IMG/VR virus record: IMGVR_UViG_3300030331_005537
Span: 1 to 22,746 of that record
DNA from: a virus
Reading direction: 5' to 3' (one strand)
Length of the DNA: 22,746 nucleotides
The notes beneath the pieces are model-generated. The model was not told the origin of the DNA. It worked only from the letters and a program-made list of their open reading frames with translations, and did no database searches. A program made the position numbers and the translations under genes. This document shows, piece by piece, positions 1 to 22,121 of the stretch (within the stretch, counting starts at the first letter, position 1; each line of letters begins with the position of its first letter).

Positions 1-68
1 GGGCCTGTAGGACCTGTCACACCCGCTGCCCCTGCCGCCCCTGCTGCTCCTGTGGGGCCTGTAGGACC
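1..68. repeat. 14-bp direct repeat inside collagen-like coding sequence
   Basis: GGGCCTGTAGGACC occurs at 1-14 and again at 55-68. The copies are 54 bases apart, exactly 18 codons, so they keep the Gly-X-Y phase. In-frame repeats of this kind can expand or contract by recombination or replication slippage and so change fibre length. Confidence 0.8.
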
Positions 69-200
69 AGTTGGTCCTTGACTCCCGGTCACTCCTCCAC
101 TTATTTTATTCCAAACACCATAGGTGGCATCATATGACCATGTGTTCTCACCTATTGTATGAGTTGAGCCACCTGATGGATTAAACGGAAATGCGGTCAT
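1..200 (-). CDS. Collagen-like Gly-X-Y repeat protein, probable virion fibre or surface protein (C-terminal part outside window)
   Basis: Only the first 66 residues or so lie in the window; the frame is open to base 1. A non-repetitive head of about 37 residues (with NTWSYDATYGVWNKI) runs into perfect Gly-X-Y triplets: GSQ, three GPT, three GAA, GVT, GPT. Such repeats form collagen triple helices and are common in phage tail fibres and bacterial surface filaments. The ATG at 200 overlaps the stop of the upstream glycosyltransferase by 4 nt (ATGA), and AAAGG lies directly against the ATG, so translation is probably coupled. The repeat DNA is much more GC-rich than the rest of the window. The threonines in the Y position are candidate O-glycosylation sites, because GPT repeats in Bacillus BclA are glycosylated. 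That and the virion location are inference; the collagen-like repeat itself is certain. Confidence 0.85.
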   Translation of the reverse strand, partial: MTAFPFNPSGGSTHTIGENTWSYDATYGVWNKISGGVTGSQGPTGPTGPTGAAGAAGAAGVTGPTG

Positions 201-1456
201 CCTTTAGCTTTTCTTTTTTTAAAAGTTTTATTATTTACCTTTTGCTTTAACGTCTCAACTTTTTGTTTATTATTCATACTTCTAAGCTGTAAATTAATTT
301 TCTTCACCTCATCATCACCAATTTGTGAAAGCACCTTCATGTATTCTTCCAAATTAGTTTTTACCCTTGACTCATGCTCCTTTGGAATAAGATTTTCCTC
401 CAGTAACTTTTTACATGCGGCATATCCTTCGTGCGGTTTACCAGCGAAAAACGCAGTGGCGCCAAGTTCATCCAACGAAACAAATCTATAAACATCCTCT
501 GAAATAAACAAAATATCATTTACTGGGAATTCCATTTCAACTGCCCTTTTTGCAAATATATAGGCGGCCGCGGGTCTACCATTTAATCTATTTAACCTTG
601 ATAACTCAACCAAAGGTTCCGCCCGGATTGGACGTATATTGTGTGCTTTAATGAATTCCATCTGCACGACATCCTCTGGCTCTTTAAGCACAGCAGATAG
701 TAAACCCACTCTGTATTGTGCATAATACGCTTCCTCATTCCAACCACCCTGCTCAACACGCTTCTTGTACGCCTTTTTTGCTTTTTCCCACTGTTGTGAA
801 TCAAAGTAGCTCTGTGCGAGATAAAATTGATATCTGTGATTTTCCGGATCATCCTCTAAGGCTTTTTCTAAAATTTCAGCATCTCGACTATACTTTTCTT
901 TCGCAGTGATACCAATATTTCTATTACCTTCTGTTCTAGCCGTTATGCTATAATCACCCTCAATTTTTCCAATCACACAATCTTGCTTTTTAGTTGCCTC
1001 CGCATACTCATGTAGGATACCAACATATCTCCAACCATGTTCCAATTTAAATATGTGGTTTCTCCACCAACTAAATGACTCTCTTCTAATACGTATTGCG
1101 TACCCATCAGCATCCATTTCATCAGGAAACTTAAAGTCCCCCTCGACCGTATCATCTGCATCAATCACCCAAGCAAAGTCTGCACCACCACTTTCAGCAT
1201 TCCTGAAAGCCTCTGTGCGAGATCCAATGTTACCTGCATGATCACCAAATCCCTTCCAATCAGATTGGTAAACCTCACCGGGTATATCATACTCAGCCAT
1301 TACATTTTTAATAATATCCTGAGTCCCATCAGTGGATCCAGTATCGGTAATATCATACCGATCAATATACGGTGCAATCGAGCGCAAACAACGCTCAATG
1401 ACATGCTTTTCATCTTTCACAATCATACAAAGGGTAATCGTTGGTTTACTTGACAT
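197..1456 (-). CDS. GT2-type glycosyltransferase with C-terminal TPR-like region
   Basis: The N-terminal GT-A domain (about residues 1-180) shows TLCMIVKDE near residue 10, DTGSTDGT at about 38-45 and the metal-binding DADD at about 99-102, the pattern of family 2 transferases. Residues from about 185 onward are helical with TPR-like repeats (for example AQSYFDSQQWEKAKKAY), a common partner in bacterial GT2 proteins that modify protein or glycan acceptors. The C-terminus is very lysine-rich. I chose the ATG at 1456 (419 aa, MSSKPTIT) because AGGAG stands four bases upstream; the in-frame ATG at 1474 has no ribosome-binding site. This is the last gene of the glycan island and its stop overlaps the start of the collagen-like gene by 4 nt, making that protein a natural candidate acceptor (inference). 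Donor sugar unknown. Confidence 0.88.
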   Translation of the reverse strand: MSSKPTITLCMIVKDEKHVIERCLRSIAPYIDRYDITDTGSTDGTQDIIKNVMAEYDIPGEVYQSDWKGFGDHAGNIGSRTEAFRNAESGGADFAWVIDADDTVEGDFKFPDEMDADGYAIRIRRESFSWWRNHIFKLEHGWRYVGILHEYAEATKKQDCVIGKIEGDYSITARTEGNRNIGITAKEKYSRDAEILEKALEDDPENHRYQFYLAQSYFDSQQWEKAKKAYKKRVEQGGWNEEAYYAQYRVGLLSAVLKEPEDVVQMEFIKAHNIRPIRAEPLVELSRLNRLNGRPAAAYIFAKRAVEMEFPVNDILFISEDVYRFVSLDELGATAFFAGKPHEGYAACKKLLEENLIPKEHESRVKTNLEEYMKVLSQIGDDEVKKINLQLRSMNNKQKVETLKQKVNNKTFKKRKAKG

Positions 1457-1571: not shown

Positions 1572-1874
1572 TCATAGTGACCTAAAATACTCTTCGGAAT
1601 TTATATTCTTATCGTCAATAAACCAATCGTAAATAGGTTTTCCCAAGTGAAGTTCGTGATATTTAACACCCCATTCTTCGAACTGTTTTTCTGTCACCTC
1701 TCTCCAATCGAGACCACTCCCCGTTCCACGAGCAGTCCAGTAAATTACCGTATGCCCGTCTTCGTACAATTGATTGATACGATTTATTCTGTCAACCATC
1801 GGAACAGCCTTTGTATAATCTCTATCTTTAGGAGAGGTGCAAATAGTTTCATCAATGTCAACTCTATAGATCAT
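1572..1874 (-). CDS. Small capless HAD-superfamily phosphatase, capsule-biosynthesis type
   Basis: A 100-aa protein with the HAD signatures in order: DIDETI (residues 6-11, nucleophile Asp and acid/base Asp), WTARG (about 46-50, motif II) and DWFIDDK (about 83-89, motif IV). It resembles short phosphatases in bacterial capsule and lipooligosaccharide clusters, including the C-terminal GKPIYDWFIDDK stretch. It lacks a cap domain and is shorter than KdsC or the usual N-acylneuraminate-9-phosphatase. Its start overlaps the stop of the NeuB-like gene by 4 nt (ATGA), so it is translationally linked to nonulosonic acid synthesis. A role in dephosphorylating a 9-phosphate sugar intermediate is plausible but unproven; another sugar phosphate is equally possible. 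Confidence 0.75.
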   Translation of the reverse strand: MIYRVDIDETICTSPKDRDYTKAVPMVDRINRINQLYEDGHTVIYWTARGTGSGLDWREVTEKQFEEWGVKYHELHLGKPIYDWFIDDKNINSEEYFRSL

Positions 1875-2695
1875 GAAACTGCTTTCCGTAAACTATTCAT
1901 TTTTGAAAGTTCACCAGTGGTTCTGGTTCTAGGTCCACCGTGACCCAAAGATAGCTCTATGTCACGAATACCCTTCATCAATTTCATCAATCCAATTGGC
2001 TCTACTGAAGCCATTTGATCACTACCGAACATAGTTCTATCTAGAGTAACATGCCTTTCCACCCAAGTAGCACCCATAGCGACAGCAGCAAACGTAGTCA
2101 CGAGACCATATTCGTGTCCACTATAACCGATCTCCACATGGGGGTACTTTTCTTTTAACCAATTTATATAATTTAAATTTAATTCCTCTATGGGTGATGG
2201 ATAAGTAGAATTCGTATGAAATACTAGATCAGGAGATCCAACGGAAATTACATTTTCCACTTCCTCTTCATTGCTCATACCGGTAGATACCATCAAATAA
2301 TCACTTCTTTCTCTAGCGTATCGCACCAACTCATTATCGGTTATCAAAGCCGATGGAATCTTCATTGTCCCACCAAAATTACTCATAAAATCTACGGATG
2401 GTTTATCCCAAACCGAAGCCAGGAACCCTATCTGTTTCTCATTAGCATAATTAAAGAGTTCTAGATATTCTTCATATCCAAACTCAATCTTTTTTTTGTA
2501 TTCCAAGTAGGTGAGTTCACCCCACGGAGTTGTCCGGATTACATCTTTCTGGTGATCAGGAACACAAATCTCTGGGGTTCTCTTTTGAAACTTCACATGA
2601 CTACAACCAGCAATAGAACAAACATCAATTAAATTCTTTGCTATTTCGACACTTCCATTATGGTTTATTCCAATTTCACCGATTACATTAATCAT
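1871..2695 (-). CDS. neuB: NeuB-like nonulosonic acid (sialic acid) synthase, single-domain form
   Basis: NeuB-family enzymes condense phosphoenolpyruvate with an N-acyl hexosamine to give a nonulosonic acid. This 274-aa protein shows the TIM-barrel signatures: GEIGINHNGS near residue 6, VKFQKR (barrel lysine), KIPSALITDN, VSTGM, HTNSTYPSP, GYSGHEYG and VERHVTLDR followed by GSDQMAS. It stops just after the barrel (SLRKAVS), where family members continue into an antifreeze-like SAF domain, so the usual 340-350 aa are not reached. The SAF domain supplies a substrate-contacting arginine in Neisseria NeuB, so its absence is notable. The glutamate normally a few residues after the KI(G/A)S lysine is also not visible here. 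AGGA stands eight bases before the ATG; the start overlaps NeuA by 8 nt and the stop overlaps the HAD gene by 4 nt. Exact product (Neu5Ac, legionaminic or pseudaminic type) cannot be told. Confidence 0.88.
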   Translation of the reverse strand: MINVIGEIGINHNGSVEIAKNLIDVCSIAGCSHVKFQKRTPEICVPDHQKDVIRTTPWGELTYLEYKKKIEFGYEEYLELFNYANEKQIGFLASVWDKPSVDFMSNFGGTMKIPSALITDNELVRYARERSDYLMVSTGMSNEEEVENVISVGSPDLVFHTNSTYPSPIEELNLNYINWLKEKYPHVEIGYSGHEYGLVTTFAAVAMGATWVERHVTLDRTMFGSDQMASVEPIGLMKLMKGIRDIELSLGHGGPRTRTTGELSKMNSLRKAVS

Positions 2696-3374
2696 TCAAA
2701 TCATCCTTTTTAAAATTATCAAGGTCTTCCATATAATCAATATCGAATATTTTATCTTGTAGTTGATAAAAAACAGTATCATTACAAAACAAATTCAAAT
2801 CCAATTCCTGTAGTTTACCGACCCGTGTTACAACCACATAATGACAACATTCAAAACAGGGGGGATACTCCTGCCTTCTATAGAGTTGATGTTCTACCAC
2901 CTTCGTTCCTGTGTGATTTTTATTCTCCAAGAAACACATATAGGGGTGAACTTTTAATTCTTTTCTGCACAAAAGAGAACCATTACCATTCTTGGTATAA
3001 AAATCATATATTTTTTGAACATCATCCCAAGTTCTTTGTGGATATGTTAGGTATAGTGTTATCACATCATGATCTTGTTCTAGATTAAGCTCTGTCACTA
3101 CATTAGAAATAACATCTCTCATGCTAGTGGAATCCAAGGACAGATCTTGATTTCTATGTATGGTTCTAAAACCAAGATCTTTTGATCTCTGTAAAAGATG
3201 TTCGTCATCACTGGTAAAGACAACATTTTCCCGCATGTCCTCGGGAATTATAGAGGCTGTATAGTCGAATAAAAATCTGTTTTTGCCCGGAAACCCAACC
3301 GATCCTTTTCTTGCAGGGATTATTATAGTAACATCTTTCATATCAACACAAGGTTTAGTTATGACAAATGGCAT
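2688..3374 (-). CDS. neuA: NeuA-like CMP-nonulosonate (acylneuraminate) cytidylyltransferase
   Basis: These enzymes transfer CMP from CTP to a nonulosonic acid to make the donor used by sialyltransferases. The 228-aa protein has the nucleotide-binding signature IIIPARKGSVGFPGKN (about residues 17-32; family consensus PARGGSKGIPGKN), VVFTSDDE, a TYPQR stretch in place of the usual TSPLR, and a C-terminal IDIDYMEDL typical of the family. I kept the ATG at 3374 because AGGA precedes it by seven bases; the alternative ATG at codon 12 has no ribosome-binding site. It sits immediately before the NeuB-like gene and overlaps it, the classical pairing. The deviating TYPQR could mean an unusual sugar substrate. 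Confidence 0.87.
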   Translation of the reverse strand: MPFVITKPCVDMKDVTIIIPARKGSVGFPGKNRFLFDYTASIIPEDMRENVVFTSDDEHLLQRSKDLGFRTIHRNQDLSLDSTSMRDVISNVVTELNLEQDHDVITLYLTYPQRTWDDVQKIYDFYTKNGNGSLLCRKELKVHPYMCFLENKNHTGTKVVEHQLYRRQEYPPCFECCHYVVVTRVGKLQELDLNLFCNDTVFYQLQDKIFDIDYMEDLDNFKKDDLND

Positions 3375-3377
3375 ATA

Positions 3378-4043
3378 TCAGTCCTCATATATGGGAAACT
3401 CTGAAAGATCTTTGTGAATACCCGAACTTTCAAGATCTTCATTTACCTCTCCTAATTGCTCAAATAGCACAATACCTCTTGCGGCCTGCTCTGGAGGCAT
3501 ATACATGTTCCAACCAACTGTATCAAATTCATCATCTTTATACAGTCGATCCATATGTCTACCCTCATACCTAACAACCTTAAACCATTCATAAGCGTCT
3601 TTGTCATCTGTGAGAATCATCCCACCCTTCCCAATCGGGACATGCTTTCTTCTATGAAAGGAAAGGCAGTAATAAGATCCCGGCACATACATGTTCTTTG
3701 TCATTCTGGTGGCAGAATCATAAACTGGAAATGGGTCAAGAGGATACGCACCGCTCCACTCAATATCATCAAAGTTAACTTTGCACCCAGCGTGAAGAAT
3801 TGTACACGGAACAGACACATATGTCCGTCGTGGAATAGTCACTTCTCCATCTGCTTTAAGATACTTTAGACAAAGAAACATAGCATCGGTACAATTGTCC
3901 ACAGCAACTGCATATTTACTGCCCGCATACTCAGCGATCATCTTCTCAAAAGAATCAACGACATCCCAAGGATCCTCACAATTGTACCTTTCCATAACAG
4001 ATTCTAAAAGTTGTCTATCGTAATCTAGTGGATGAATTAACAT
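3378..4043 (-). CDS. Compact DegT/DnrJ/EryC1-type PLP sugar aminotransferase
   Basis: Members transfer an amino group to keto-sugar nucleotides. The 221-aa protein follows the family from SFEKMIAEYAGSKYAVAVDNCTDA (PLP phosphate region) through VYDSATRM (Asp about 109, ring-nitrogen contact) to SFHRRKHVPIGKGG with the Schiff-base lysine at about 133, and GWNMYMPPEQAARG (family GYNYRMTEIQAALG). It then ends about 30 residues later, whereas usual members run 360-400 aa with a further C-terminal small domain. The sequence upstream of the lysine is also compressed. The gene start overlaps the oxygenase by 7 nt (GGGA five bases upstream) and NeuA begins 3 nt after its stop, so no missing exon or frameshifted tail is visible. 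It probably makes an amino sugar for this island, but activity of such a short form is uncertain. Confidence 0.75.
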   Translation of the reverse strand: MLIHPLDYDRQLLESVMERYNCEDPWDVVDSFEKMIAEYAGSKYAVAVDNCTDAMFLCLKYLKADGEVTIPRRTYVSVPCTILHAGCKVNFDDIEWSGAYPLDPFPVYDSATRMTKNMYVPGSYYCLSFHRRKHVPIGKGGMILTDDKDAYEWFKVVRYEGRHMDRLYKDDEFDTVGWNMYMPPEQAARGIVLFEQLGEVNEDLESSGIHKDLSEFPIYED

Positions 4044-4747
4044 GCAGATCCCAACTTTGCATTTTCAATCGGGTCAAAAGTATTTGGTGTTTTATCTCTA
4101 CTCATTATATCATAATACCCACCAATTGCAAACCTCTGTCTTGTGGTACAACTAGCCAATGTGGAGTTTGGATCATACGCGAACCCAGGCATGACTCTAA
4201 AGTCAAAACTTACTCTGGTTCGATTAGTATCATTGTCCTTGTTACCATGCCTACACTGGTTCAAATAACCCATAAGAAACTCACCGTTATTTAGGTTGAT
4301 AGGAGAAAAATCACCAAGTCCGGGAAGGCTCTCCACCCAAATCGTATTATTACCAAATGACTCAGTTAATGGCAGAAAGATATTAATCTCACCTAGTGGA
4401 TGTCTGTGGTGTGCGTCTCCATCACAGTGCCATTTATAAACAGCTTTAGCGCCAGGCCTACAAAAACGAATACCGGGATACTTCTGATATAAAAGTTCAT
4501 CATCTTCAAACATCGGGAAGATTACCTCTCGAACGAACGCTTGGTATAAATTTGTAAATTCAGGCCAACCACCATCGGCATCGAGTCTTTGATAAAAAAT
4601 TTTATGGAATTCAGTCTTGGTATCGTTACCTAAAGTAAGATTAGTTTTCTGATCTTCGTTGTCCAGTTCAGTAAGGTCTGCATCATACAAACTCCCAACC
4701 AAGTCAGCAAAGTAATATTTTTTCTTATCGTAAGTTAAAATTTTCAT
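4037..4747 (-). CDS. StrG-like Fe(II)/2-oxoglutarate-dependent oxygenase
   Basis: The 236-aa protein carries the double-stranded beta-helix signature: WHCDGD (His107, Asp109) and GYLNQCRHGN (His167), then NRTRVSFDFRV with Arg178 placed to bind 2-oxoglutarate. The closest named relative I recognise is the StrG protein of streptomycin biosynthesis; similar proteins occur in surface-glycan clusters. I chose the ATG at 4747 because it forms an ATGA overlap with the upstream GT11-like gene and has GGA seven bases before it; a TTG four codons upstream is unlikely. Between a fucosyltransferase-like gene and an aminotransferase it may hydroxylate or otherwise oxidise a sugar or an amino-sugar substituent. 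The real substrate cannot be told. Confidence 0.75.
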   Translation of the reverse strand: MKILTYDKKKYYFADLVGSLYDADLTELDNEDQKTNLTLGNDTKTEFHKIFYQRLDADGGWPEFTNLYQAFVREVIFPMFEDDELLYQKYPGIRFCRPGAKAVYKWHCDGDAHHRHPLGEINIFLPLTESFGNNTIWVESLPGLGDFSPINLNNGEFLMGYLNQCRHGNKDNDTNRTRVSFDFRVMPGFAYDPNSTLASCTTRQRFAIGGYYDIMSRDKTPNTFDPIENAKLGSAC

Positions 4748-5604
4748 ATAAATTTCCAAACTTTATAATATTTAGACCCAGTATCATTGTACAAATCTAA
4801 CCAAAAATTATCATATGATTTCCAGTATGATTCAGGATAGTCTTCAGTGTAATTACCCCACATCACATATGACTCATCAAAATGTTTCCGTATCCAATCC
4901 AATGAATGAATTATTTTCTTATTTGGTTTGCCTAAAAAACCAGCGGTGATAACGAATGTACTAGAAGAACATATCAACACATCACATTCCGAAAGTAAAG
5001 CAAAATCTTTAAAATGATTACTCAAATCACCAACCACAAAGTTATGGTTTTTCTTTCTAAGGTAATCTATGGTTTCAATATATGTTTGAAATGATACATC
5101 GTCCGTACAAACATGATAGACAACATCACCAAACTCCAAGTCAACAACATCAATAGCTTTCTTATAATAATCAGGAGAATGAATCTCTCTTCCGTTATTA
5201 CCATCAGATGATATTATGTCGTCACCTCGAATATGAATACCAACATTAACCTTGGACTCATCTAAGACAGGTTTAAATTCCTCTCTTATTTGCAAGAAAT
5301 CTCTGGGATCTTTTTTTGTTAAATGATTAAATGTATTATGTAAGAGATAAGAAGGATCGTCTATGTGATAATCTCTATCCATCGGCAGTTGTGTTATATC
5401 ATCATGTAAAACAGTGTTCCAATTTAAGAAACTTTGAGGTTTGGTTGGCGGGGTATCATCGACAATACTTTCAAAAAAAGTATTACCCTCCCAACTACAA
5501 CAACTAGCTTCTACACCAAGTAAATCAGACAATTGTAATAGACTATTATATTGCAGTACTCTATTACCAAATCTACCGCCTGTTATTTTATTGATTCTTA
5601 TCAT
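4744..5604 (-). CDS. GT11-like (alpha-1,2-fucosyltransferase-like) glycosyltransferase, copy 1
   Basis: The 286-aa protein begins with GGRFGN (residues 9-14) followed by QYNSLLQL, has VGIHIRGDD (about 122-129) equivalent to the HxRxxD motif of GT11 and related fucosyltransferases, and a late SECDVLICSSSTFVITAGFLG block that corresponds to the conserved C-terminal acceptor/donor region. A homologue lies in the same island at 9188-9889 with the same blocks. It overlaps genes on both sides by 4 nt (ATGA). GDP-fucose is the likely donor by family, but no GDP-fucose synthesis genes are in the window, so the nucleotide sugar must come from the host or from elsewhere in the phage. Confidence 0.78.
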   Translation of the reverse strand: MIRINKITGGRFGNRVLQYNSLLQLSDLLGVEASCCSWEGNTFFESIVDDTPPTKPQSFLNWNTVLHDDITQLPMDRDYHIDDPSYLLHNTFNHLTKKDPRDFLQIREEFKPVLDESKVNVGIHIRGDDIISSDGNNGREIHSPDYYKKAIDVVDLEFGDVVYHVCTDDVSFQTYIETIDYLRKKNHNFVVGDLSNHFKDFALLSECDVLICSSSTFVITAGFLGKPNKKIIHSLDWIRKHFDESYVMWGNYTEDYPESYWKSYDNFWLDLYNDTGSKYYKVWKFI

Positions 5605-6296
5605 TTAGCCCAAACCATCCCCGAACGTTGAACCCATACCCTATCCTCCGGAATGGGACAATCTAGAAAATTATCAAACCCAGAGATAAATTCGTCCGCA
5701 GTTTTATAGTTAGTAATTTCATTGTCGTGATAATCGTGTGATGTATGCCATATTTCAGTTGAAAATAAAGTGAAACCAATAGTCTCCAAATGTCTAATTG
5801 ACTTAACCACCTTATCCCTGAGAGGTTCATGCCACTCAAAAGTAATCAAAGGAACTTTTTGACTTAGACCCAATAGAACCTCGTACTCATGACCTTCAAC
5901 ATCAATTTTTATAAAATCAGGTAGACCATGTTCCTCTATTAAGTAGTCAACTGTTATGGTTTCAACCTCGGTAGGTCTATCAAAAGTATAATGATCTTTA
6001 AATGCTTTCCCATCCTGCATTAATTTTTCAGATGCCCTGAAACAAGATTTCTCAAGAAAATCATTGTCTATGCTAGAAACACCACTATCTTCATTGCAGT
6101 GCAAGAGAGTGGCAGTTCCGAATGAGGAGGAGACAGCTTTGTTGTAAAGGAAAACACGGGATCCAAAATTAGAAACAAGATCACTGAAATGATGTAACTG
6201 AGGTTCTACCGCAACAAATTTAGCAGATGGCCACTTACGAATCGCATCTGCTAGATACTTGCCCTGATTACATCCTATATCAAAAATTAAATTCAT
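5601..6296 (-). CDS. FkbM-family SAM-dependent methyltransferase, copy 1
   Basis: The 231-aa protein shows the SAM-binding FDIGCNQGKY (about residues 5-14), VAVEPQ at the end of strand beta 2, and FIKIDVEGHEYEVLLG (about 138-153), the hallmark of FkbM-type O-methyltransferases, which commonly methylate sugar hydroxyls in glycan clusters. AGGTG seven bases before the ATG is a good ribosome-binding site, and the 32-nt gap before it (6297-6328) is one of the few spacers in the island. The stop overlaps the GT11-like gene by ATGA. Likely role is O-methylation of a sugar, perhaps as a chain cap; the position methylated is unknown. Confidence 0.85.
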   Translation of the reverse strand: MNLIFDIGCNQGKYLADAIRKWPSAKFVAVEPQLHHFSDLVSNFGSRVFLYNKAVSSSFGTATLLHCNEDSGVSSIDNDFLEKSCFRASEKLMQDGKAFKDHYTFDRPTEVETITVDYLIEEHGLPDFIKIDVEGHEYEVLLGLSQKVPLITFEWHEPLRDKVVKSIRHLETIGFTLFSTEIWHTSHDYHDNEITNYKTADEFISGFDNFLDCPIPEDRVWVQRSGMVWAK

Positions 6297-6328
6297 TGGG
6301 TTTCACCTGTAGAAGTAAAGCATCTCTT

Positions 6329-7099
6329 TCATTTCCAAATCCAATCTGTTGGTATATCTCTCGTCTCTACCGTGTCAACTCTATTAAATTCTTTATGATG
6401 ATCCAATCGACTCTCATAAGAACCTCGACCATCGAGTTCCTCTATTTTAGCGTAGAATTCTAATTTCTCACCGTTGAGATAACTGGGACACAGTTTGCCG
6501 TAATGAATAATGTAGAAGTCCTCTTGTTCCCCAACCTTGCCAGAATTATTTGGGGCAGGATGATATCTAGAACACCCACCTTTCTGAACCTCTAAGTCAT
6601 AACTATAGTTTATATTCTTATCAAATTTCATTAAGGGATACTTAAACCAAGCGTTATCCGAAAATGGATCAAAGTTAGCTTCTCTATTAAACTTTGTATT
6701 ATATTTGTCCACTCTGTATTTGGTTTCATCATCCCATAGATTTATCATTCTAGACCTCCACAGAAAAACATCATTGTTCATGTTCTCCATGAAATTTACT
6801 ATACTTGGCGTGGGTATCTCATCAGCGTCTAAGAGTAAAACATAATCTGGATCATGCTCGCCGAGGATATTAATAAGTTCCGACCTTTGCTTTGCTTCTT
6901 CTCGAAGTATAGGATTGTGTTCAGGTCTAACTCTCCAGTCAACCTTATCGAACGACTTACATATTAGTTCTGTTTTGTCTGTACTACCATCATCATACAC
7001 TACAATCTCTTCGCAAAAATTACCCAAAGCAGTTAGAGTTTTCTCTATGATCCAGTCTTCATTTTTTGTTGTCAGTCCGGCAACTAATTTATTGTTCAT
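6329..7099 (-). CDS. GT2 family glycosyltransferase (GT-A fold)
   Basis: The 256-aa protein opens with LVAGLTTKNEDWIIEKTL, then VVYDDGSTDKT (about 33-43) and LLLDADEIPT (about 88-97), the donor and metal-binding (DAD) motifs of family 2. Conserved WRSRMINLW and a late HYGKL are typical of single-domain phage and surface-polysaccharide GT2 enzymes. GGAG lies seven bases before the ATG and the start overlaps the sialyltransferase-like gene by ATGA. Its substrate is unknown. Confidence 0.87.
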   Translation of the reverse strand: MNNKLVAGLTTKNEDWIIEKTLTALGNFCEEIVVYDDGSTDKTELICKSFDKVDWRVRPEHNPILREEAKQRSELINILGEHDPDYVLLLDADEIPTPSIVNFMENMNNDVFLWRSRMINLWDDETKYRVDKYNTKFNREANFDPFSDNAWFKYPLMKFDKNINYSYDLEVQKGGCSRYHPAPNNSGKVGEQEDFYIIHYGKLCPSYLNGEKLEFYAKIEELDGRGSYESRLDHHKEFNRVDTVETRDIPTDWIWK

Positions 7100-7815
7100 T
7101 GATCTTCTCCATGAAAAGATACATTTATGAAATCATTTAATTCTTCAGTCAAAGTTGCACTCGTAGTAGTAAATTCAAAATCAATTGACGCATTTTCTTG
7201 TACCAACTCTTTTATATATTCTAGAGCATGTTGATCGTGACCATTTTCTTGATTATATACGAACCCATCTTTAAGAATTGCACCTTGATCAAAAAGATAA
7301 TGGAGATTTGATTGTAAGTGCTCTGGTTCAAAGTAGTACATCCTATCCCCCTTGTTCATTAAATCAAAACCAACCATAGAAATTATTTTATACTTGCGAG
7401 ACTGAATAGCATAACTAAATGCTATGACACCAGTAGAGGGAGAAAATACATTTCCAGAAAGGGTTCTGAAAATAATTGTTCGGTTTGGTCCCGGTTCAAA
7501 GTCGGGATATGTTATTGTTACAAGACGATTATAATATTCAGGAACATCCAATTGTTGTTCTGGTGCGGCTGTACTAACAATTTCTTTTATACCAAATTCT
7601 TTTATTTCATCCTCTGAAAACCTGTCTGTTGAGTTGTTGGTAAATTGTACCGCTGCCTTCTTGGGGATATATTTCTCATAACCATCCCAGATGGGTTTAT
7701 TGCAAATTATCACATCGTCAAACCTGTTGATATAATCGGGGGTGGTTTTGAGAATACTCGGACCCTTTCCCACGACGACACAACTTCTAGCAGTATTCGA
7801 AGGAGACACTATCAA
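7096..7815 (-). CDS. Sialyltransferase-like (GT29/GT42-like) protein
   Basis: The 239-aa protein starts with SCVVVGKGPSILKT (about 11-24) followed by RFDDVIICNK (about 31-40), the arrangement of the CMP-binding region in GT42 (CstI/CstII: GNGPSL then RCN) and of sialylmotif L in GT29. A second block FSPSTGVIAFSYAI...IISMVGFD (about 125-151) matches the motif-S pattern (PSTG, then YGFD-like). With NeuA and NeuB in the same transcript it is the obvious user of the CMP-nonulosonate. The start is uncertain: TTG at 7815 overlaps the upstream stop as TTGA with AAGGG upstream, and GTG at 7809 is the alternative. Family assignment is by motif only; a DUF115-like or other capsule transferase is the main alternative. 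Confidence 0.62.
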   Translation of the reverse strand: MIVSPSNTARSCVVVGKGPSILKTTPDYINRFDDVIICNKPIWDGYEKYIPKKAAVQFTNNSTDRFSEDEIKEFGIKEIVSTAAPEQQLDVPEYYNRLVTITYPDFEPGPNRTIIFRTLSGNVFSPSTGVIAFSYAIQSRKYKIISMVGFDLMNKGDRMYYFEPEHLQSNLHYLFDQGAILKDGFVYNQENGHDQHALEYIKELVQENASIDFEFTTTSATLTEELNDFINVSFHGEDQ

Positions 7816-8585
7816 AGATCCACCCTTAAGCTATGAGGAATGATTTGATCGTTTGGATCAAGTTCCCTGATATCAAATTGCGTACCATTGTCGAATGGAT
7901 ATTTCTTATTTTCTATCGCATCTTCTAGTAATTTTTCATCCGAACAAAATCTATATCGAGGATGACTGTATGTGTCTAACTTGTGAATCATTTCTTTGGG
8001 TGTCATACACCAAGAAAAATGACAACCAACATACTGATCTGTCACCCTACCAATATCTCTCCAGTTGTATGGGTATTTTTTTGATATGCTCCCATAATAT
8101 GTTGCTATCGGAGAAGTAAAATCTTTATTTTTCCAGAGGTAAGTCTTCTTATAAAAGAACTGTCTGAGTTTCAGTGCAACTACTTTGTGCTTCTGAACTT
8201 CACTAATAATGTAAGCTATCTTATCCCCATAAATTATCTCATCTGCATCTATTGATATGATGATATCATCATCATTGAAATCATATAATTTTGTGAAATA
8301 ACTTCTCATTACTGGTTCATTCACATTATGAATTGCGTCCTCGTTTTCATAAGCCCTTGCAGTCTCATTAAAAACTTCACACGCATGGTAATCTATTTTA
8401 TCACGAAGATGCTCTGGAACTTTATCCTCAAGATTCTGGAATTGAAAATTTCTCTTCACTCCAGTATGATTGATATCAAACTCACAGACAATCATCTTCT
8501 CAATATGGTCATAACACTCTTCTAAGTTAGCAATGATGAATTCAAGTTCATGTGGGGCGTACATGTATGTTTTTAAATATATCAT
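7812..8585 (-). CDS. GT17-like glycosyltransferase (GnT-III-like N-acetylglucosaminyltransferase family)
   Basis: The 257-aa protein shows the GT17 pattern: ELEFIIANLEE, VCEFDINHTG (about 33-42), NEDAIHN, DDIIISIDADEI (about 106-117, the DxD), a YYG stretch, and VGCHFSWC with K..TYSHP (about 187-209). GT17 includes eukaryotic beta-1,4-mannosyl-glycoprotein GlcNAc-transferases and many bacterial and viral proteins. Its ATG follows directly on the TAG of the preceding methyltransferase with no gap, and its stop is used in a TTGA overlap with the next gene. A GlcNAc donor is likely by family only. Confidence 0.8.
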   Translation of the reverse strand: MIYLKTYMYAPHELEFIIANLEECYDHIEKMIVCEFDINHTGVKRNFQFQNLEDKVPEHLRDKIDYHACEVFNETARAYENEDAIHNVNEPVMRSYFTKLYDFNDDDIIISIDADEIIYGDKIAYIISEVQKHKVVALKLRQFFYKKTYLWKNKDFTSPIATYYGSISKKYPYNWRDIGRVTDQYVGCHFSWCMTPKEMIHKLDTYSHPRYRFCSDEKLLEDAIENKKYPFDNGTQFDIRELDPNDQIIPHSLRVDL

Positions 8586-9191
8586 CTAACCAATCCTAAT
8601 AACTGCATAAGAAAATAATGGGTGAATTTGTTTGTCCTCAGTATGAGTTATCACATCATAGTCGAAAATTTGTTTTGCTCTATCTAGAAAATCATAATGA
8701 TTCACATCATCAATCATGACATAACAAGGACTTTTCAATTTACCAACCAAATGAGAAAAAGCAAGACTCCTACCATTTCCATTAGGACCGTCAATAAGAA
8801 CCAAATCAATATCATCTGGTAAGTCTTCATCAGTCAAATCATAAAAACAATTTTTTGCACGGAAGTTATCCTTTTCATGTTGAGCAGTTGAAAACACATC
8901 TTTAGTTATTTTTCTATCTTCAAACATTTTATCAAATGCTTCGTCATCACATGTCACAAGATCTCTGATTGTTGCTGAACCAAAGGCATAAGCATCGTTG
9001 TGATCGAAAGAGGTTAGAGAGTAGTCTAAATTGTGAAGTGTTCTAAAATCATTAAAGAATCTACTAGACTGACCAGAACCAAACTCAACTATATTTTTTA
9101 TATCTTTAGTTAAAATAATATTTTCCAACTCCAAGAGTTGACAACTATGAAGACCCATACCACCAATCCAATACGAATTGTAATCAATCAT
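8586..9191 (-). CDS. Class I SAM-dependent methyltransferase-like protein
   Basis: The 201-aa protein has a Rossmann pattern: IVEFGSGQSSRFF (about 34-46, SAM-binding glycine motif), LTSFDHND (acidic end of the second strand), DLVLIDGPNGNGRS (about 129-142) and CYVMIDDVNHYDF. It is the class seen in small-molecule and glycan methyltransferases, distinct from the two FkbM proteins in this island. I chose the ATG at 9191 because GGAG stands six bases upstream and it makes an ATGA overlap with the GT11-like gene; the in-frame ATG at 9203 has no ribosome-binding site. Target unknown. Confidence 0.7.
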   Translation of the reverse strand: MIDYNSYWIGGMGLHSCQLLELENIILTKDIKNIVEFGSGQSSRFFNDFRTLHNLDYSLTSFDHNDAYAFGSATIRDLVTCDDEAFDKMFEDRKITKDVFSTAQHEKDNFRAKNCFYDLTDEDLPDDIDLVLIDGPNGNGRSLAFSHLVGKLKSPCYVMIDDVNHYDFLDRAKQIFDYDVITHTEDKQIHPLFSYAVIRIG

Positions 9192-9889
9192 ATTAATCTC
9201 CATAAAGAATAATCTTCATTTCCACCATCATTTAAATCAACCCAGAACTTATCTTCCTTGCTAACTCTATCAGATACCCAACTGTTGCAATGAATAATTT
9301 TCTTATTCTTACCGATAAATCCTGCACATATACAATATGTAGACGGACTAGAAATAATATAATCACACTCACTCATAGCAGAGAAATCTTCGACATATTG
9401 CTGTCTGTTTGGTACGTTAACACCAACTACAATATTTTTTGATTTTTCTTCTAGATATTTTACCACGGATTTGTATGATTGCAATTCTTTATCATCGGTA
9501 AATAAATAGAATGTTTCTGCTGGAACTTCTTCGATAGCATTCAAATAGTATTCCTCACCCAAAACTGCATCAGAGTTCCATTGGAAAAAATCAGTTCCCC
9601 TAAAATGAATTGCAGCAGAATTAGGCTCAACTATAGATTTTTGTTTGAGTTCAAAAATCGTTCGTGTTGGAATTGTCCTCCACTCAAAAAACTTTTCCCC
9701 AAGACAAAGATTCAATGATCTGTCTCCGGACTGAGAACCATTCAATAAATCCCCAGTAAAAATCTGAGAGCCCTCCCACGGAACACAAGACCATTCTTCA
9801 TTCTCTTTCGCTGCTAACTGTCGAAGATTATTGTAATAAAGAATCTTATTTCCAAATCCACCGCTTGTCATGGTAGTAATAGAAATCAT
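9188..9889 (-). CDS. GT11-like glycosyltransferase, copy 2
   Basis: The 233-aa protein repeats the plan of the gene at 4744-5604: MTSGGFGNKILYYN at the start, AIHFRGTDF (HxRxxD equivalent, about 93-101) and SECDYIISSPSTYCICAGFIG near the end. It is about 50 residues shorter, mostly between the first two blocks and at the C-terminus. I chose the ATG at 9889 (ATGA overlap with the upstream gene, GGAAG upstream, and alignment with the other copy) over a GTG five codons earlier. Likely a fucosyltransferase-like enzyme with a different acceptor or linkage. Confidence 0.75.
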   Translation of the reverse strand: MISITTMTSGGFGNKILYYNNLRQLAAKENEEWSCVPWEGSQIFTGDLLNGSQSGDRSLNLCLGEKFFEWRTIPTRTIFELKQKSIVEPNSAAIHFRGTDFFQWNSDAVLGEEYYLNAIEEVPAETFYLFTDDKELQSYKSVVKYLEEKSKNIVVGVNVPNRQQYVEDFSAMSECDYIISSPSTYCICAGFIGKNKKIIHCNSWVSDRVSKEDKFWVDLNDGGNEDYSLWRLI

Positions 9890-10572
9890 GGGTTTGTCTT
9901 CCACCCCCTATCGATCCAATAATCATATAGACCAAATCGAACACTATCGTGACCCTGCTTCTTGAACGTAGCATGTTCGTCAACGCCCAAATTCTGCATT
10001 ACGTCTCCCCACACATCTGGATTCGATGCTGGTTGAGCAGGAAAGTAGGAATCAATATCACCATGAATTTTGCAGGAAGCACAGAAGTGTATATCTTCTC
10101 CATTATCATAGGTTGGTGGATTTTCTCTCCACATGTAGTGAATCCACTCTGTCTTAAAAAACCAACAATGACCAACTATATCACATTTGATATTGTTTAA
10201 ATTTCCATCACCGCAACCAAATCCAGTCTTGTTGTAATTTCTACAATTCGCTCCAACGATACAATTCTTCTCATCACAAAGTTCTTTACAATGTTGCAAC
10301 CATTTTGGGTTAGGAATTGTATCATCATCAAAGATAGCCGTATACTTGCTATCGAACAATAGAGGTAGAGTAAATCTTCCGTGAAACTTAAAATTCACAT
10401 CTTTAGAATGTACATGTTTAAATTTATATTTTTCTTTGAGATTATCGACATTGACATGCTGTTCATTTTGGTAAACATATATCTCACTAACATCTGCGGT
10501 TTGCTTCTGAATTGCCTGCAACTGCCTTTCTAAAGTATCTCTCTTCCAGACAGTAAGTATTACGTTTATCAT
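9886..10572 (-). CDS. GT-A glycosyltransferase, GT2/GT64-like
   Basis: The 228-aa protein opens with INVILTVWKRDTLERQLQAI, the start of GT2/GT64 folds, and has YTAIFDDDTIPNPKWL (about 77-92), where DDD is the metal-binding motif. NGEDIHFCASCKIHG (about 157-171) holds the ED pair expected of the catalytic base region. A tail with PDVWGDVMQNLG follows. It abuts the preceding gene with no gap and has GGA six bases before the ATG. Exostosin-type GT64 enzymes share the DDDT motif; donor unknown. Confidence 0.78.
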   Translation of the reverse strand: MINVILTVWKRDTLERQLQAIQKQTADVSEIYVYQNEQHVNVDNLKEKYKFKHVHSKDVNFKFHGRFTLPLLFDSKYTAIFDDDTIPNPKWLQHCKELCDEKNCIVGANCRNYNKTGFGCGDGNLNNIKCDIVGHCWFFKTEWIHYMWRENPPTYDNGEDIHFCASCKIHGDIDSYFPAQPASNPDVWGDVMQNLGVDEHATFKKQGHDSVRFGLYDYWIDRGWKTNP

Positions 10573-11385
10573 CTATATTCCAATATTATTTTTTTCTAGT
10601 ATTTCCATTGTTGTGTCAAAGGTGCCTTTAATAGAAGAGTTTTTCTCAAACCATTCTATACAATTATCCGACATCATCTTCCATTTTTCCCTTGAGCAAG
10701 CACCAACAAGTTCGGTAGCTTCCTCTGGTGTATTAGCTTTCAGATAATGCACACCTTCTTCGATTCGATTAAAGTGTTCAACAGAGCAACCCGGAGTTAT
10801 TACAGGAACAACCCCAAGCCCCATGTATTCGATGTCCCTCAAACATTTTGGACCCACTCCCGGCAAACAAAGACCAAACTTCATTTTAGATAATACTTCT
10901 AAATACCCAATTGGAGAATATGCATCTCCACTTGCAGTCAATATAAAGAAGTCACAACACTGCTCCCAATTTAAAGTTCTTAGTGGAGTTGTCTTGCTCC
11001 CAACAAAGCCTAATAAAACTTCCCTGTCATCATATGAAAACCTACTATTTATTTTAAAGTCTTCGTATAGTTTAGAATGTTTAGGCCAGAAAGACCAAGC
11101 ACTCGATCTCTCACCCTCTAACATGCTATTTGCCCACAAGGAAAACTTCCAATTTCGATCTGCTGGGATTCTATCAAGCAAAGCAAAATCATACAACATG
11201 ATATCACCAACATCTCCCATCCAACACTTTGCCTCTGGTAGATTCAATACATCCGTGTTAAAACTGTAAGTGGGAACCGGGCATGGTTTTACTTTACAAT
11301 AACCTCGCTCCCCCCAAACATCAACTAGTCCCCGAAAAGAATCAGTGCTATGTTCACAAAAATATGGTTTTATAATGGTAACCAC
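10573..11385 (-). CDS. Putative exostosin/GT47-like (GT-B) glycosyltransferase
   Basis: The 270-aa protein has few strict signatures, but the C-terminal half, with YLEVLSKMKFGLCLPGVGPKCLRDIEYMGLGVVPVITPG, is the pattern of GT47/exostosin and other GT-B donor-binding halves (small-residue loop, then E, then G.VPVI). Residues 1-120 would be the acceptor half. I chose the GTG at 11385 because GGGAG lies five bases upstream and it starts one base after the upstream stop; a TTG at 11400 is the alternative. Family level is tentative; glycosyltransferase function is fairly likely from pattern and context. Confidence 0.62.
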   Translation of the reverse strand: MVTIIKPYFCEHSTDSFRGLVDVWGERGYCKVKPCPVPTYSFNTDVLNLPEAKCWMGDVGDIMLYDFALLDRIPADRNWKFSLWANSMLEGERSSAWSFWPKHSKLYEDFKINSRFSYDDREVLLGFVGSKTTPLRTLNWEQCCDFFILTASGDAYSPIGYLEVLSKMKFGLCLPGVGPKCLRDIEYMGLGVVPVITPGCSVEHFNRIEEGVHYLKANTPEEATELVGACSREKWKMMSDNCIEWFEKNSSIKGTFDTTMEILEKNNIGI

Positions 11386-11386
11386 A

Positions 11387-12145
11387 TCAACTCCCGACAA
11401 TCAAATCTACCAGCTTGTCTATTTCTTCCTTATGTTGCTGATAAGGTCGTATGGAGTGACAATCGTAGTAGTAATCCTGAGTCACCAAATCTGGTTCATA
11501 TCCCCATGTGGGCCTATCAATTCTAAATCCGTTCTGCCCTCCATTGCGGGGAATTAGAACTACATCTCCACTACCATAAAACCTTTCCATCACCTTTTTA
11601 CTACCATAATATTCATCAGCAAACCAACAATCCTTACCAGACAATTCCCCGCCGGGATCTTTACCGTTCTTTAAGTTAAAAATAAACTTGATTGAATCTT
11701 CCCAGTTGTCGTGCAAATCTAAAACCTCTTTATACTTAGATCCCTTTGCAATATGATAACAACTAGGAATCATACCATAGCTCTCCAAGCAAGGATTAAT
11801 ATGCACATAAAAATCGTCTGGTATTTCTGCAATATTATCCACAAAATATTTCTTAGAAAGTGGGAGCATGTCGATATCGCTCAAAATACTAATGGAATCT
11901 GGTTTCTGGGAGGGATACCAATATCTTACCCAAAGATTTTGTAGATAAACAGGTATATCTTCCACAGGCTTGAATTTTACAACTTCACCATAAGTATTAT
12001 CAATATCAATGTCATGGTTTTCATCTACGTAAATTAGAAGTGGTGTAATATCGAACTTAAGTTTCCATATTTTACTAACAATGGGCCAAAAGTCCAAATA
12101 CATGCTATTAGAATCTGAACTGTGTATTGCGTATTCAATTTTCAT
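11387..12145 (-). CDS. Putative GT-A-fold glycosyltransferase
   Basis: The 252-aa protein has SILSDIDMLPLSKKYF (about 85-100), where DID is a DxD metal-binding motif as in many GT-A enzymes, followed by a region rich in aromatic residues and ADEYYGSKK (about 176-184). I do not recognise a named family. It overlaps the upstream gene by ATGA with GAGG seven bases before the ATG. Position inside an unbroken row of transferases supports the call. Confidence 0.6.
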   Translation of the reverse strand: MKIEYAIHSSDSNSMYLDFWPIVSKIWKLKFDITPLLIYVDENHDIDIDNTYGEVVKFKPVEDIPVYLQNLWVRYWYPSQKPDSISILSDIDMLPLSKKYFVDNIAEIPDDFYVHINPCLESYGMIPSCYHIAKGSKYKEVLDLHDNWEDSIKFIFNLKNGKDPGGELSGKDCWFADEYYGSKKVMERFYGSGDVVLIPRNGGQNGFRIDRPTWGYEPDLVTQDYYYDCHSIRPYQQHKEEIDKLVDLIVGS

Positions 12146-12819
12146 TCTATATCCTCATTTTCTTCATTGCAATCAATAAAAGCGTACCCGACATGCTGCC
12201 TTGGTCTAGGCTGAGTGGGAAAAGGTTTTACCTCCTGTGTCTCGCTATGGCGTAACCAATCATCATGTGCGATTATATCATTCGCATGATAATTGTCAAA
12301 CACCAACTCCAAGAATGTCTGATCACGCCACACATAGCCAGACATGTGTTGATAATTGTCTTTGTGTAGTCCAGTGGAATCTGAGAGCAATTTAGTCATA
12401 TCAAAAAGTTTTTGCTTTGGTTTGCACCCCCACATACCAGTTTGAAATTTCATGTTATGCTCTTTTGCATCGCGCATGGAGTGCAGTGTTTTATCACTAT
12501 CTAACCAATCATGAACTGCTTCCGACTCCCGCTTAGAAAGTCTAGAGTCAATATCACGAACTATAACAGCGTCATACGAGGTATCATCAACGGCTAAACA
12601 TCTCCAGACCACACCACATATCGGCGAAGATGTCATGTCGATAATATCAAATCCCTGAGATCGAAGGGTTTCGATCACATCCATTGGAACAGAATCATCA
12701 ACGTAGCATACCAAGTCCCAACCCGGATAAAATTTATCAGCGAGATCTTTATTCTGCACTGCGTTCCCAATGTACCGAGGATCATCTCCATATAAGCTAT
12801 AAGAAATCAAACCTCGCAT
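12142..12819 (-). CDS. Putative GT-A-fold glycosyltransferase
   Basis: The 225-aa protein starts GLISYSLYGDDPRYIGNAVQN, contains AVIVRDIDSRLSKRE (about 84-98), with a DID metal-binding motif, then WLDSDKTLHSMRDAKEHN and QTGMWGCKP. This set is found in small transferases of viral and bacterial surface-glycan clusters that place the DxD near residue 90. The start overlaps the end of the bifunctional GT gene by 13 nt and has only a weak GAAG before the ATG, so coupled translation is likely. Family and donor are not recognised. Confidence 0.62.
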   Translation of the reverse strand: MRGLISYSLYGDDPRYIGNAVQNKDLADKFYPGWDLVCYVDDSVPMDVIETLRSQGFDIIDMTSSPICGVVWRCLAVDDTSYDAVIVRDIDSRLSKRESEAVHDWLDSDKTLHSMRDAKEHNMKFQTGMWGCKPKQKLFDMTKLLSDSTGLHKDNYQHMSGYVWRDQTFLELVFDNYHANDIIAHDDWLRHSETQEVKPFPTQPRPRQHVGYAFIDCNEENEDIE

Positions 12820-14255
12820 CTTTTCACTTCCTTAACAACAGAACTAAACAAAGCGTCATCAGACATCACCATTTTAGATACTCGATTAAAGTTGTCCTTT
12901 ATCGCACTAAGTTTACTCTCATACAATTCCTCTGTGAGAGAATCAATGTCAAACTCATCATTAATAAAAATAATACCGTCTGTGTTAAAGTAATCACCGA
13001 TGTTTGGACACCCCCAATAAACAGGTATTGTACCATTTGCAAAACAGTCCGTAATCTTTTCTGTATAGTAGTTATTGTATGAATCATTCTCTATTGTTAT
13101 TGAAAACCTATAATCTTTAATAGCTTCGGTCTTTGGTGGGTGTGAAGAAGAAGCAAATCCATCGGTACCAATCCTTGGGGATCCAAGAACTCCACCAAAT
13201 AGATCAACCTTTTCCTGATATTCTTCTGCTAATTGGTGTCTTAGTGCATGACCCACCGTACTTTTCTTTGGTGATGCCAACAGAGAGCAGTTTTTTGTCT
13301 TTTTATGAATACCATAATGACTTTTTGGTGTCCATGGAGCATTACTACCACTAGGTGCAAATTTAAATCTTTTATCTAGAGACAATAGTTCTTCATCGCA
13401 AGTAAAAATTGCATCATAGTACTGGAAAAATTGTTCGTAGTTTTTCTTGAGTGCTTCGCATAGCTCAGGGACAATAGCACGAGACTCACAAACCCACCCA
13501 TAAAACTTATTACCCTCGTGTTTCGGATGGGATGGAGCCATACTCATCCCATTGTCGATGAATATTTTTATTGGTTGATCGGCGTTACTCCAAGAAAACC
13601 TAGTCGTTGGTTTCTTACCACAGGATGATCCATCATTTAAATTGAATGGGGGATACATCGCTTGTAGTTTACTCTCCCAAATTTGATCATCCTCTCCCCC
13701 ACTGAGTCCTATGTTCACGTTTGATGCTGGGTGCATCACGGTACACACATTTTGATGTGGACTGAATGTGACAATATTTGCCCCTGCATTATTTTCATTA
13801 AAAGTTAAAATTAATTGCTCGTGATCACCTAAAGTATACTCACCAACACTAGCCGCGGATTCTTTTGATCTACATCTAGATATCCACTCCCTTAAAAATG
13901 TTATACTTTTCTCTGTATTATTAAAGTAAATCAATGCACTATGTGGAGTCTTCCCATCATGTTCACGCAGACAAAGAGCGACATCGCAGTCTAGATCTGA
14001 AAATTGTTCTGGCAATGAATTTACCACACAATCAATATCAATCCAAATAACAGGCTCATCTAGATTTATAATCATGTTGAGTATATACTCCGGTTTCATT
14101 AGACAATTCAACATATAATTATCTCGTGAAACTAGTCGCTCAATGTGATGTGTTGCACCAAGCTGATCAAGACGAGAAGACAACTTAGAAGCACATCGCA
14201 CGTAGTAATTACTGGTTCCTCTATCACTGAAAAAACTGATAAATTTAGTTTTCAT
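12807..14255 (-). CDS. Two-domain glycosyltransferase: N-terminal GT-A domain fused to C-terminal GT10 fucosyltransferase domain
   Basis: The 482-aa protein has two parts. Residues 1-200 are a GT-A-like domain with NCLMKPEYILN and VIWIDIDCVV (DID at 73-75), homologous to the stand-alone gene just upstream (14245-14889). Residues 225-480 are a GT10 domain: YRFSITIEN (382-390), YYTEKITDCFANGTIPVYWG (396-415) and PNIGDYF match the alpha-1,3/1,4-fucosyltransferase signature, including the Glu and Lys that contact GDP-fucose. GGGAG five bases before the ATG supports the start; the gene overlaps its neighbours by 11 and 13 nt. Two transferase activities on one chain could add consecutive sugars. 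The GT10 call is strong; the N-terminal donor is unknown. Confidence 0.87.
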   Translation of the reverse strand: MKTKFISFFSDRGTSNYYVRCASKLSSRLDQLGATHHIERLVSRDNYMLNCLMKPEYILNMIINLDEPVIWIDIDCVVNSLPEQFSDLDCDVALCLREHDGKTPHSALIYFNNTEKSITFLREWISRCRSKESAASVGEYTLGDHEQLILTFNENNAGANIVTFSPHQNVCTVMHPASNVNIGLSGGEDDQIWESKLQAMYPPFNLNDGSSCGKKPTTRFSWSNADQPIKIFIDNGMSMAPSHPKHEGNKFYGWVCESRAIVPELCEALKKNYEQFFQYYDAIFTCDEELLSLDKRFKFAPSGSNAPWTPKSHYGIHKKTKNCSLLASPKKSTVGHALRHQLAEEYQEKVDLFGGVLGSPRIGTDGFASSSHPPKTEAIKDYRFSITIENDSYNNYYTEKITDCFANGTIPVYWGCPNIGDYFNTDGIIFINDEFDIDSLTEELYESKLSAIKDNFNRVSKMVMSDDALFSSVVKEVKRCEV

Positions 14256-14889
14256 TTTGTCTCCCTACAGACTGCCACTCAATGACATCCTCAGACATTC
14301 CCATTTTTCTTAAAGATTCTTTTTTTGAATCGACATCGGACAACCCCATAACAATCACCGTGCTATCAGTTTCTTGTCCTGGCCATGTGCAATAGTCAGG
14401 ACCAACAAAACCAATATTAATTTTTTCAATATACTCACTAACAATACCAAATAGCGGTTCGTGATCAAAGAGTTCAACATCGTTTTTTATATTATTATCT
14501 ACGGCAGATATCCAACTCCGAAGTAGATTTTTTGTGTTCTCTGTGCTATTAAAAAACAAAGGAGAAGCCTTTATACCACTAAGATTTGGAACTGCGGTGG
14601 ATAAAGCAATATCAGTGCTATCAGGTAAAGCAGCAAAGTCCACGGGATTCTTCAACAGAATCGTATCGATATCAAGCCATAAAAGAGGACAGTCATGTTC
14701 CTCTAACTTATCTAAAATATACTTTGGCTTTCGTGAGCAATTAAGTTTATACGAACCCAAAGAATTCAATTTTTCTATTTCATATGGTAGATCAAATTTA
14801 TCTAATGCACGAATTAAGTCCACAGAACACTTTTCGTAGTAAAGAGAATCATCTACATCACAAAAATAACTTATCACTTTATAGTTCAT
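14245..14889 (-). CDS. Stand-alone GT-A glycosyltransferase, paralogue of the N-terminal domain of the next gene
   Basis: The 214-aa protein aligns with the N-terminal domain of the fusion at 12807-14255: both have NC..KP.YIL (about 50-59), a WIDID/WLDID metal motif (about 71-75), a FN.TE.....L..WIS stretch and DHE.L. It therefore appears to be a tandem duplicate or the parental unfused gene. The ATG shares its first base with the TAA of the FkbM gene (TAATG) and has an AGAG site eight bases upstream. Donor unknown. Confidence 0.72.
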   Translation of the reverse strand: MNYKVISYFCDVDDSLYYEKCSVDLIRALDKFDLPYEIEKLNSLGSYKLNCSRKPKYILDKLEEHDCPLLWLDIDTILLKNPVDFAALPDSTDIALSTAVPNLSGIKASPLFFNSTENTKNLLRSWISAVDNNIKNDVELFDHEPLFGIVSEYIEKINIGFVGPDYCTWPGQETDSTVIVMGLSDVDSKKESLRKMGMSEDVIEWQSVGRQNEN

Positions 14890-15959: not shown

Positions 15960-16010
15960 ATTAATACTCCATACCCAATATCTAATAGTAGGCAGTAGTA
16001 TTTATTTATT
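15960..16010 (-). promoter_or_regulatory. regA leader with tandem AATAAATA motif and ribosome-binding site
   Basis: The 46-nt gap between gp62 and regA is the longest spacer in the replication block. On the minus strand it carries AATAAATA twice, overlapping, at 16010-16003 and 16006-15999. This resembles the T4 late promoter box TATAAATA and the NATAAATA form reported for T4-like cyanophages, and lies about 40 bases before the regA ATG. GGAG at 15970-15967 is the ribosome-binding site. By analogy with T4 this region is also where RegA could bind its own message. Promoter activity is inference. Confidence 0.45.
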
Positions 16011-17607: not shown

Positions 17608-17609
17608 AA

Positions 17610-21047: not shown

Positions 21048-21057
21048 ATCTGATATG

Positions 21058-22119: not shown

Positions 22120-22121
22120 TC

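Follow-up and report, generated by a model that had tools for sequence, protein, structure and literature searches.

A TPR-bearing GT2 glycosyltransferase beside collagen-like fibre genes in uncultured T4-like phages is a candidate fibre protein O-glycosyltransferase

In Clostridioides difficile, the gene encoding SgtA, a glycosyltransferase that combines a GT-A domain with TPRs, is located just upstream of bclA3, whose product is a collagen-like surface protein rich in GPT. SgtA adds beta-O-GlcNAc to Thr residues of collagen-region peptides in vitro, and the GlcNAc that it adds can be extended on the spore (PMC7157674). GmaR, the flagellin O-GlcNAc transferase of Listeria, has a GT2 domain followed by TPRs and acts on a self-assembling surface fibre protein; it is ~637 aa long and also contains a linker and C-terminal antirepressor domains (PMC9638930). 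In T4-like marine phages, the hypervariable host recognition cluster of pelagimyophages encodes both tail fibres and glycosyltransferases, and the latter are read by the authors as modifying the host LPS (PMC7029224). In the open-access literature, we found no description of the glycosylation of a phage collagen-like fibre. The peptide S-glycosyltransferases SunS, which is prophage-derived, and ThuS (PDB entries 7msn, 7msp and 7msk) consist of a GT2 domain and a TPR-type helical domain, and their acceptor is a cysteine of a bacteriocin.

Here, we examine a GT2 glycosyltransferase with TPRs, termed GT2TPR, that is encoded in a complete IMG/VR virus record of 22,746 bp (the window), which is from a T4-like phage. 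Like SgtA, which was compared by its description, GT2TPR has a GT2 domain with a DXD-type motif and C-terminal TPRs, and its gene adjoins that of a Thr-rich collagen-like protein; the adjacency is true for the window and not for every phage relative. The two systems differ in that SgtA-BclA3 belongs to the spore coat and SgtA has 358 aa, while the phage enzyme has 419 aa, lies with fibre genes and is preceded by a sugar island of many genes. The linker and antirepressor domains of GmaR are both missing from it. The pelagimyophage cluster is located between VrlC and gp14, whereas the island described here lies between regA and gp43, and GT2TPR was not found in the pelagimyophages HTVC008M and Mosig.

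The window and its glycosyltransferase

The organization of the window is given in Table 1. The glycan island is tightly packed on the minus strand from 15542 down to 1572, and overlaps of at least 4 nt are the rule across the operon. On the far side of the replication module, the 542-aa protein is kept across the group. The phage glutamine synthetase is 76-85% identical in close relatives (L052, L053, L055 and L059) and 41-50% identical in several others, and the 207-aa partial protein adjoining it is 77-88% identical in close relatives.

Table 1. Features of the 22,746-bp window.
Coordinates	Strand	Feature	Evidence
3..200	-	First 66 aa of a collagen-like fibre protein, truncated at the contig edge	
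197..1456	-	GT2 + TPR glycosyltransferase (GT2TPR), 419 aa	
1475..1571	-	Longest gap of the operon (97 nt), separating the island from GT2TPR and the fibre gene	
1572..1874	-	Small phosphatase-like protein, capsule-biosynthesis type	TIGR01689, sub-threshold; phrog_1238
1871..2695	-	NeuB-type nonulosonate synthase	PF03102, 2.6e-60
2688..3374	-	CMP-nonulosonate cytidylyltransferase-like	PseF, 1.5e-9, sub-threshold
3378..4043	-	Short (221 aa) sugar aminotransferase of the DegT/LegC type	
4037..4759	-	2OG-Fe(II) oxygenase-like protein of carbohydrate clusters	TIGR04324, weak
4744..15542	-	Remaining part of the variable glycan island	
within 4744..15542	-	Two GT11-like proteins, two FkbM methyltransferases, two GT2	
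within 4744..15542	-	GT29-like, GT17-like, GT10-like, methyltransferase, nucleotide-sugar transferase-like, three without assignment	
15561..18281	-	Conserved anchor: RegA, gp62, GroES-like, gp44, gp45 (T4-like replication module)	
19467..21095		542-aa protein	C-terminal N6/N4-type DNA methylase domain
21058..22182		Glutamine synthetase, GlnII type	NF041605, 6e-113, below the curated cut-off
22122..22745		Partial protein, 207 aa	no Pfam or NCBIfam match

The open reading frame of GT2TPR runs over 197-1474 on the minus strand; the ATG at 1456, with AGGAG before it, is the better start and gives a protein whose TPR region is followed only by a basic tail. Pfam identifies Glycos_transf_2 (PF00535, 2e-7, above the cut-off) and TPR_14 (4e-6, 27.6 bits against a cut-off of 23.5). 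A DXD-type motif is present, and the catalytic-type residues of DTGSTD (38-43) and DADD (99-102) are invariant in an alignment of 47 orthologues, from which the rows of annotated phage records were left out. The structure model (pLDDT 91.2) has a GT-A fold, and its helical repeats at residues 185-378 align to TPR domains. Among solved proteins, profile matches were obtained with GmaR (2e-14), SunS (4e-10) and ThuS (7e-9). At an identity of 15-20%, the model aligns in both domains and over most of its length with SunS (7msp; Z 22.5 over 270 residues) and ThuS (Z 20.6), with Foldseek matches at 1e-12. These closest characterised enzymes are all soluble protein or peptide glycosyltransferases, as judged for SunS and ThuS from their PDB titles. 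GT2TPR itself is not filed as SunS, because it scores 34.6 bits against the curated cut-off of 350 for the NCBIfam SunS equivalog TIGR04195. Giant viruses (Indivirus, Pithovirus, Harvfovirus) also encode GT2+TPR proteins, which are 34-37% identical to the phage enzyme.

The stop codon of GT2TPR overlaps the start of the next gene (AAAGG-ATGA), whose product belongs to the collagen family c0. Its residues 1-35 form a non-collagen N-terminal adaptor, and over aa 4-66 the protein matches phrog_3449 ('tail collar protein', 4e-8), an adaptor shared with T4-like tail fibre/collar proteins. Unrelated phage fibres often share this adaptor (loci L002-L008), which is thus of no value for identifying the phage. 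Residues 36-66 are ten unbroken triplets, GVT GSQ GPT GPT GPT GAA GAA GAA GVT GPT (+G), of which four are GPT and six have Thr at Y, and there are six GX(T/S)G sites; at least nine consecutive triplets were obtained in 1 of 200,000 shuffles of this tail. A tblastn search of isolates with the 66-aa fragment gave no match, and since the window is the whole record, the rest of the fibre can be read in relatives only.

The first-pass annotation of this DNA had described a TPR-bearing GT2 gene with an ATGA overlap to a GPT-containing Gly-X-Y protein, and both the Pfam matches and the reading frames bear this out. Its view of that protein as consisting of Gly-X-Y triplets holds for residues 36-66 and fails for the adaptor. 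The translational coupling that it saw in the ATGA carries little weight in an operon where such overlaps are the rule. Its statement that the island leads into the pair agrees with the operon order, except that the longest gap of the operon sets the pair apart.

The enzyme and its neighbours in phages and bacteria

Single-sequence scans with the window's glycosyltransferase found no relative. Relatives of gp44 led to syntenic contigs, and an alignment of eight GT2TPR orthologues was used as the query, which returned several hundred relatives; 80 loci were kept, 62 of them non-redundant. Loci anchored on NeuB were also considered as relatives and left out, as they come from other phages and show no GT2TPR beside a collagen gene. 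Given that the loci are related and were picked by similarity, the p-values below overstate their independence.

The gene order in relatives is gp45-gp44-gp62-regA-[island]-GT2TPR-[fibre cassette]-dUTPase-gp43. The island between regA and gp43 is highly variable, and at one locus (L271) it comprises four genes. Whatever its content, GT2TPR is the last island gene in 62/62 non-redundant loci and nearly always directly precedes the fibre cassette, with the next gene at -4 to 58 nt. Runs of at least six Gly-X-Y triplets are found downstream of it in 40 of the 49 loci that have 1.5 kb or more of sequence there, compared with 2 of 691 ORFs upstream. The first gene after GT2TPR encodes the fibre protein c1 in 38/62 loci, and a c0 fibre in the window and several other loci. 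In 39 whole records, which are not independent and many of which are fragments, PF01391 is present in 18/20 with GT2TPR and 4/19 without it (Fisher 1.7e-5). Of the 62 GT2TPR genes, 15 have the T4 late-promoter octamer TATAAATA in the 100 bp before them, compared with 21 of the 641 island genes (p 4e-8), so that GT2TPR tends toward regulation with the fibres; the 97-nt gap of the window contains no exact copy.

At three loci (L192, L193 and L200, the first two near-identical), the order is regA-GT2TPR-c1-collagen and the island is absent. Thus, the enzyme and the collagen-like gene form the core, and the island is accessory. At L158 and L179, GT2TPR is followed by dUTPase with no fibre cassette, and collagen is found ~10 kb further on the same contigs. 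L093 and L100 have regA-c1-fibres, with neither GT2TPR nor a long collagen in that cassette; sugar genes are wholly absent, and the fibre genes lie between regA and dUTPase. A further T4-like contig (L262, record G028) encodes several very long GTT/GTQ collagens with 31-38% Thr at Y and lacks GT2TPR; another enzyme may act there, or none at all. GT2TPR was not found in seven cultured relatives (pelagi-, methylo- and cyanophages), six of which have the region in their record, with few genes from regA to gp43. No cultured T4-like phage was found to carry the gene, though 2,528 records match gp44.

Bacterial genomes were scanned with the phage GT2TPR profile only, which is blind to collagen, and 64 loci had a readable enzyme ORF. 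With poly-Gly excluded, a collagen-like gene is present in the flanks of 27 of these, and in 26 of the 27 it has at least 30% Thr at Y. At 16 loci, the collagen-like gene is within 500 bp of the enzyme, compared with ~6% under uniform placement. The collagen-flanked loci belong to Streptomyces, Bacillus, Paenibacillus, Oscillibacter, Rhizobiales, Ignavibacteria and others; among the relatives that the phage profile recovers beside collagens are the Firmicute loci L327, L350 and L355. In many bacterial phyla, GT2-TPR enzymes are encoded next to collagen-like genes rich in Thr (L297-L376), which suggests a widespread and mostly undescribed family of collagen glycosylation enzymes.

Candidate acceptor residues

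The content of Thr or Ser at Y differs strongly between collagen families. It is 59-79% in c0, c14, c19 and c22, but 5-12% in c3, c4 and c5 beside GT2TPR, and these last three are the families most often next to the enzyme. In addition, 12 of the 18 fully bounded cassettes have repeats with almost no Thr at Y. As many of the neighbouring collagens are Thr-poor, the acceptor is probably to be sought in the fibre cassette broadly, beyond the GPT collagen.

We therefore consider motif counts outside Gly-X-Y runs, obtained in long G/T-rich ORFs with the expectation taken from composition. The observed/expected ratio of GXTG is 3.3 in six contigs with GT2TPR (2.4-4.3 in each) and 0.9 in nine records without it, and that of GXSG is 2.2 versus 1.1. 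For isolated sites, the values are 2.76 and 0.95. The reordered and substituted motifs GTXG, TGXG, GXGT, GXNG, GXDG, GXAG and GXVG are all near or below 1.3. In c1, GXTG is 10-fold above expectation, and GX(S/T)G occurs in 40/40 copies adjoining GT2TPR (mean 3.1) and in 0/7 homologues from phages without the enzyme, in which most of the G/T-rich loop is missing. The c1 family is strongly divergent; fold searches gave generic immunoglobulin-like matches alone, some from phage baseplates. When two c1 proteins were used as tblastn queries against isolates, one had a weak 47-aa match to a Streptomyces phage and the other had none.

In aligned homologous regions, phages with and without GT2TPR show no overall difference in the motif (84 vs 82). 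This confines the motif effect to fibre-type proteins, and we reject the idea that all virion proteins are targets. The enrichment of Gly-X-(Thr/Ser)-Gly, even outside collagen and only in fibre-type proteins of enzyme-bearing phages, is a new observation that suggests a sequon; the putative GX(T/S)G sequon is derived from counts in related sequences.

Taken together, the conserved position, the homology to SunS and GmaR, the bacterial relatives and the SgtA-BclA3 parallel indicate that GT2TPR is very probably a protein glycosyltransferase with a fibre-cassette protein as its acceptor. This upholds the core of the first-pass annotation, namely protein glycosylation in the phage by this enzyme. 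Its choice of GPT threonines now appears too narrow, in view of the Thr-poor cassettes and the enrichment in non-collagen sites. Its further proposal, that the collagen-like protein accepts the assembled oligosaccharide, is unsupported as stated: the annotation had itself named the pair in relatives lacking the island as telling against it, and this is what the three island-free loci contain.

Competing readings and biological meaning

We favour, with a probability of roughly 0.7, the reading that GT2TPR belongs to the SgtA/SunS/GmaR type of soluble GT-A/TPR enzymes and O-glycosylates the fibre proteins with which it is paired, both collagen-like and other. At a late stage of infection, the TPR arm would grip newly made proteins of the fibre cassette in the cytoplasm of the host, and the GT2 domain would transfer one sugar from a nucleotide donor to the Thr (or Ser) of Gly-X-(Thr/Ser)-Gly. 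The predicted targets include, in collagen-like fibres like that of the window, the triplets GPT, GVT and GAT, and in neighbouring fibre proteins the GXTG loops; a candidate acceptor peptide for the enzyme is GVTGSQGPTGPTGPTG. In phages that have the island upstream, the glycosyltransferases, methyltransferases and nonulosonate genes encoded there would probably extend or cap the first sugar, a role that is plausible and not required for the pair.

A narrower variant of this reading, whose weight overlaps with the one just given, is that GT2TPR mainly targets another cassette protein, either the GXTG loop of the c1 beta-sandwich or the non-collagen parts of c0, with collagen serving as a stalk. 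The frequent position of c1 directly after the enzyme, its motif content as compared with homologues from phages lacking GT2TPR and the many Thr-poor collagens all speak for it. On the other hand, a c0 fibre comes first at several loci besides that of the window, the bacterial relatives adjoin Thr-rich collagens and SgtA acts on collagen threonines, and we regard a restriction of this kind as rather unlikely.

It is less likely still that the island, including GT2TPR, remodels the host lipopolysaccharide/O-antigen against superinfection, with the proximity to the fibres reflecting a shared hypervariable host-interaction region. Such a role is the published reading for the glycosyltransferases of the pelagimyophage cluster (PMC7029224), and the island resembles O-antigen/nonulosonate loci in content. 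However, GT2TPR stays fixed beside the fibres while the island turns over, it persists at the three loci without all other sugar genes, and the characterised enzymes closest to it modify proteins or peptides. The sequon enrichment in fibre-type proteins and the late-promoter motif before the gene also argue against it, although the LPS reading may be right for some other island genes. T4-like phages glucosylate their DNA, and a role of GT2TPR in modifying DNA or another phage component, like the T4 glucosyltransferases, can be envisaged; we consider it highly improbable given that the nearest solved relatives are protein or peptide enzymes rather than DNA glucosyltransferases and that the gene is placed with fibre genes.

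The preferred reading of GT2TPR as a fibre O-glycosyltransferase can be extended, tentatively and at somewhat below even odds, to the lineage as a whole: these uncultured T4-like phages would glycosylate their fibres with their own enzyme at Gly-X-(Thr/Ser)-Gly, in collagen and in loops, and an exchangeable island would dress the first sugar, giving fixed fibres with a variable coat. With free swapping of the island, the glycans on a conserved fibre apparatus would differ between related phages.

Glycosyltransferase islands of marine T4-like phages have so far been read in terms of host LPS modification. If the member that they conserve O-glycosylates fibres, a large part of the island may instead serve to decorate the virion, in which the fibres presumably reside, and the adsorption, masking and host range of phages in the ocean would have to be interpreted differently. 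Through the GX(T/S)G sequon, this idea can be tested on peptides and on viral metaproteomes that already exist. The parallel in bacteria points to a single GT2-TPR family that is widespread and glycosylates collagen-like proteins in many phyla, and our results suggest that a large group of uncultured bacterial viruses from marine and fresh waters coats its own fibres with sugars.
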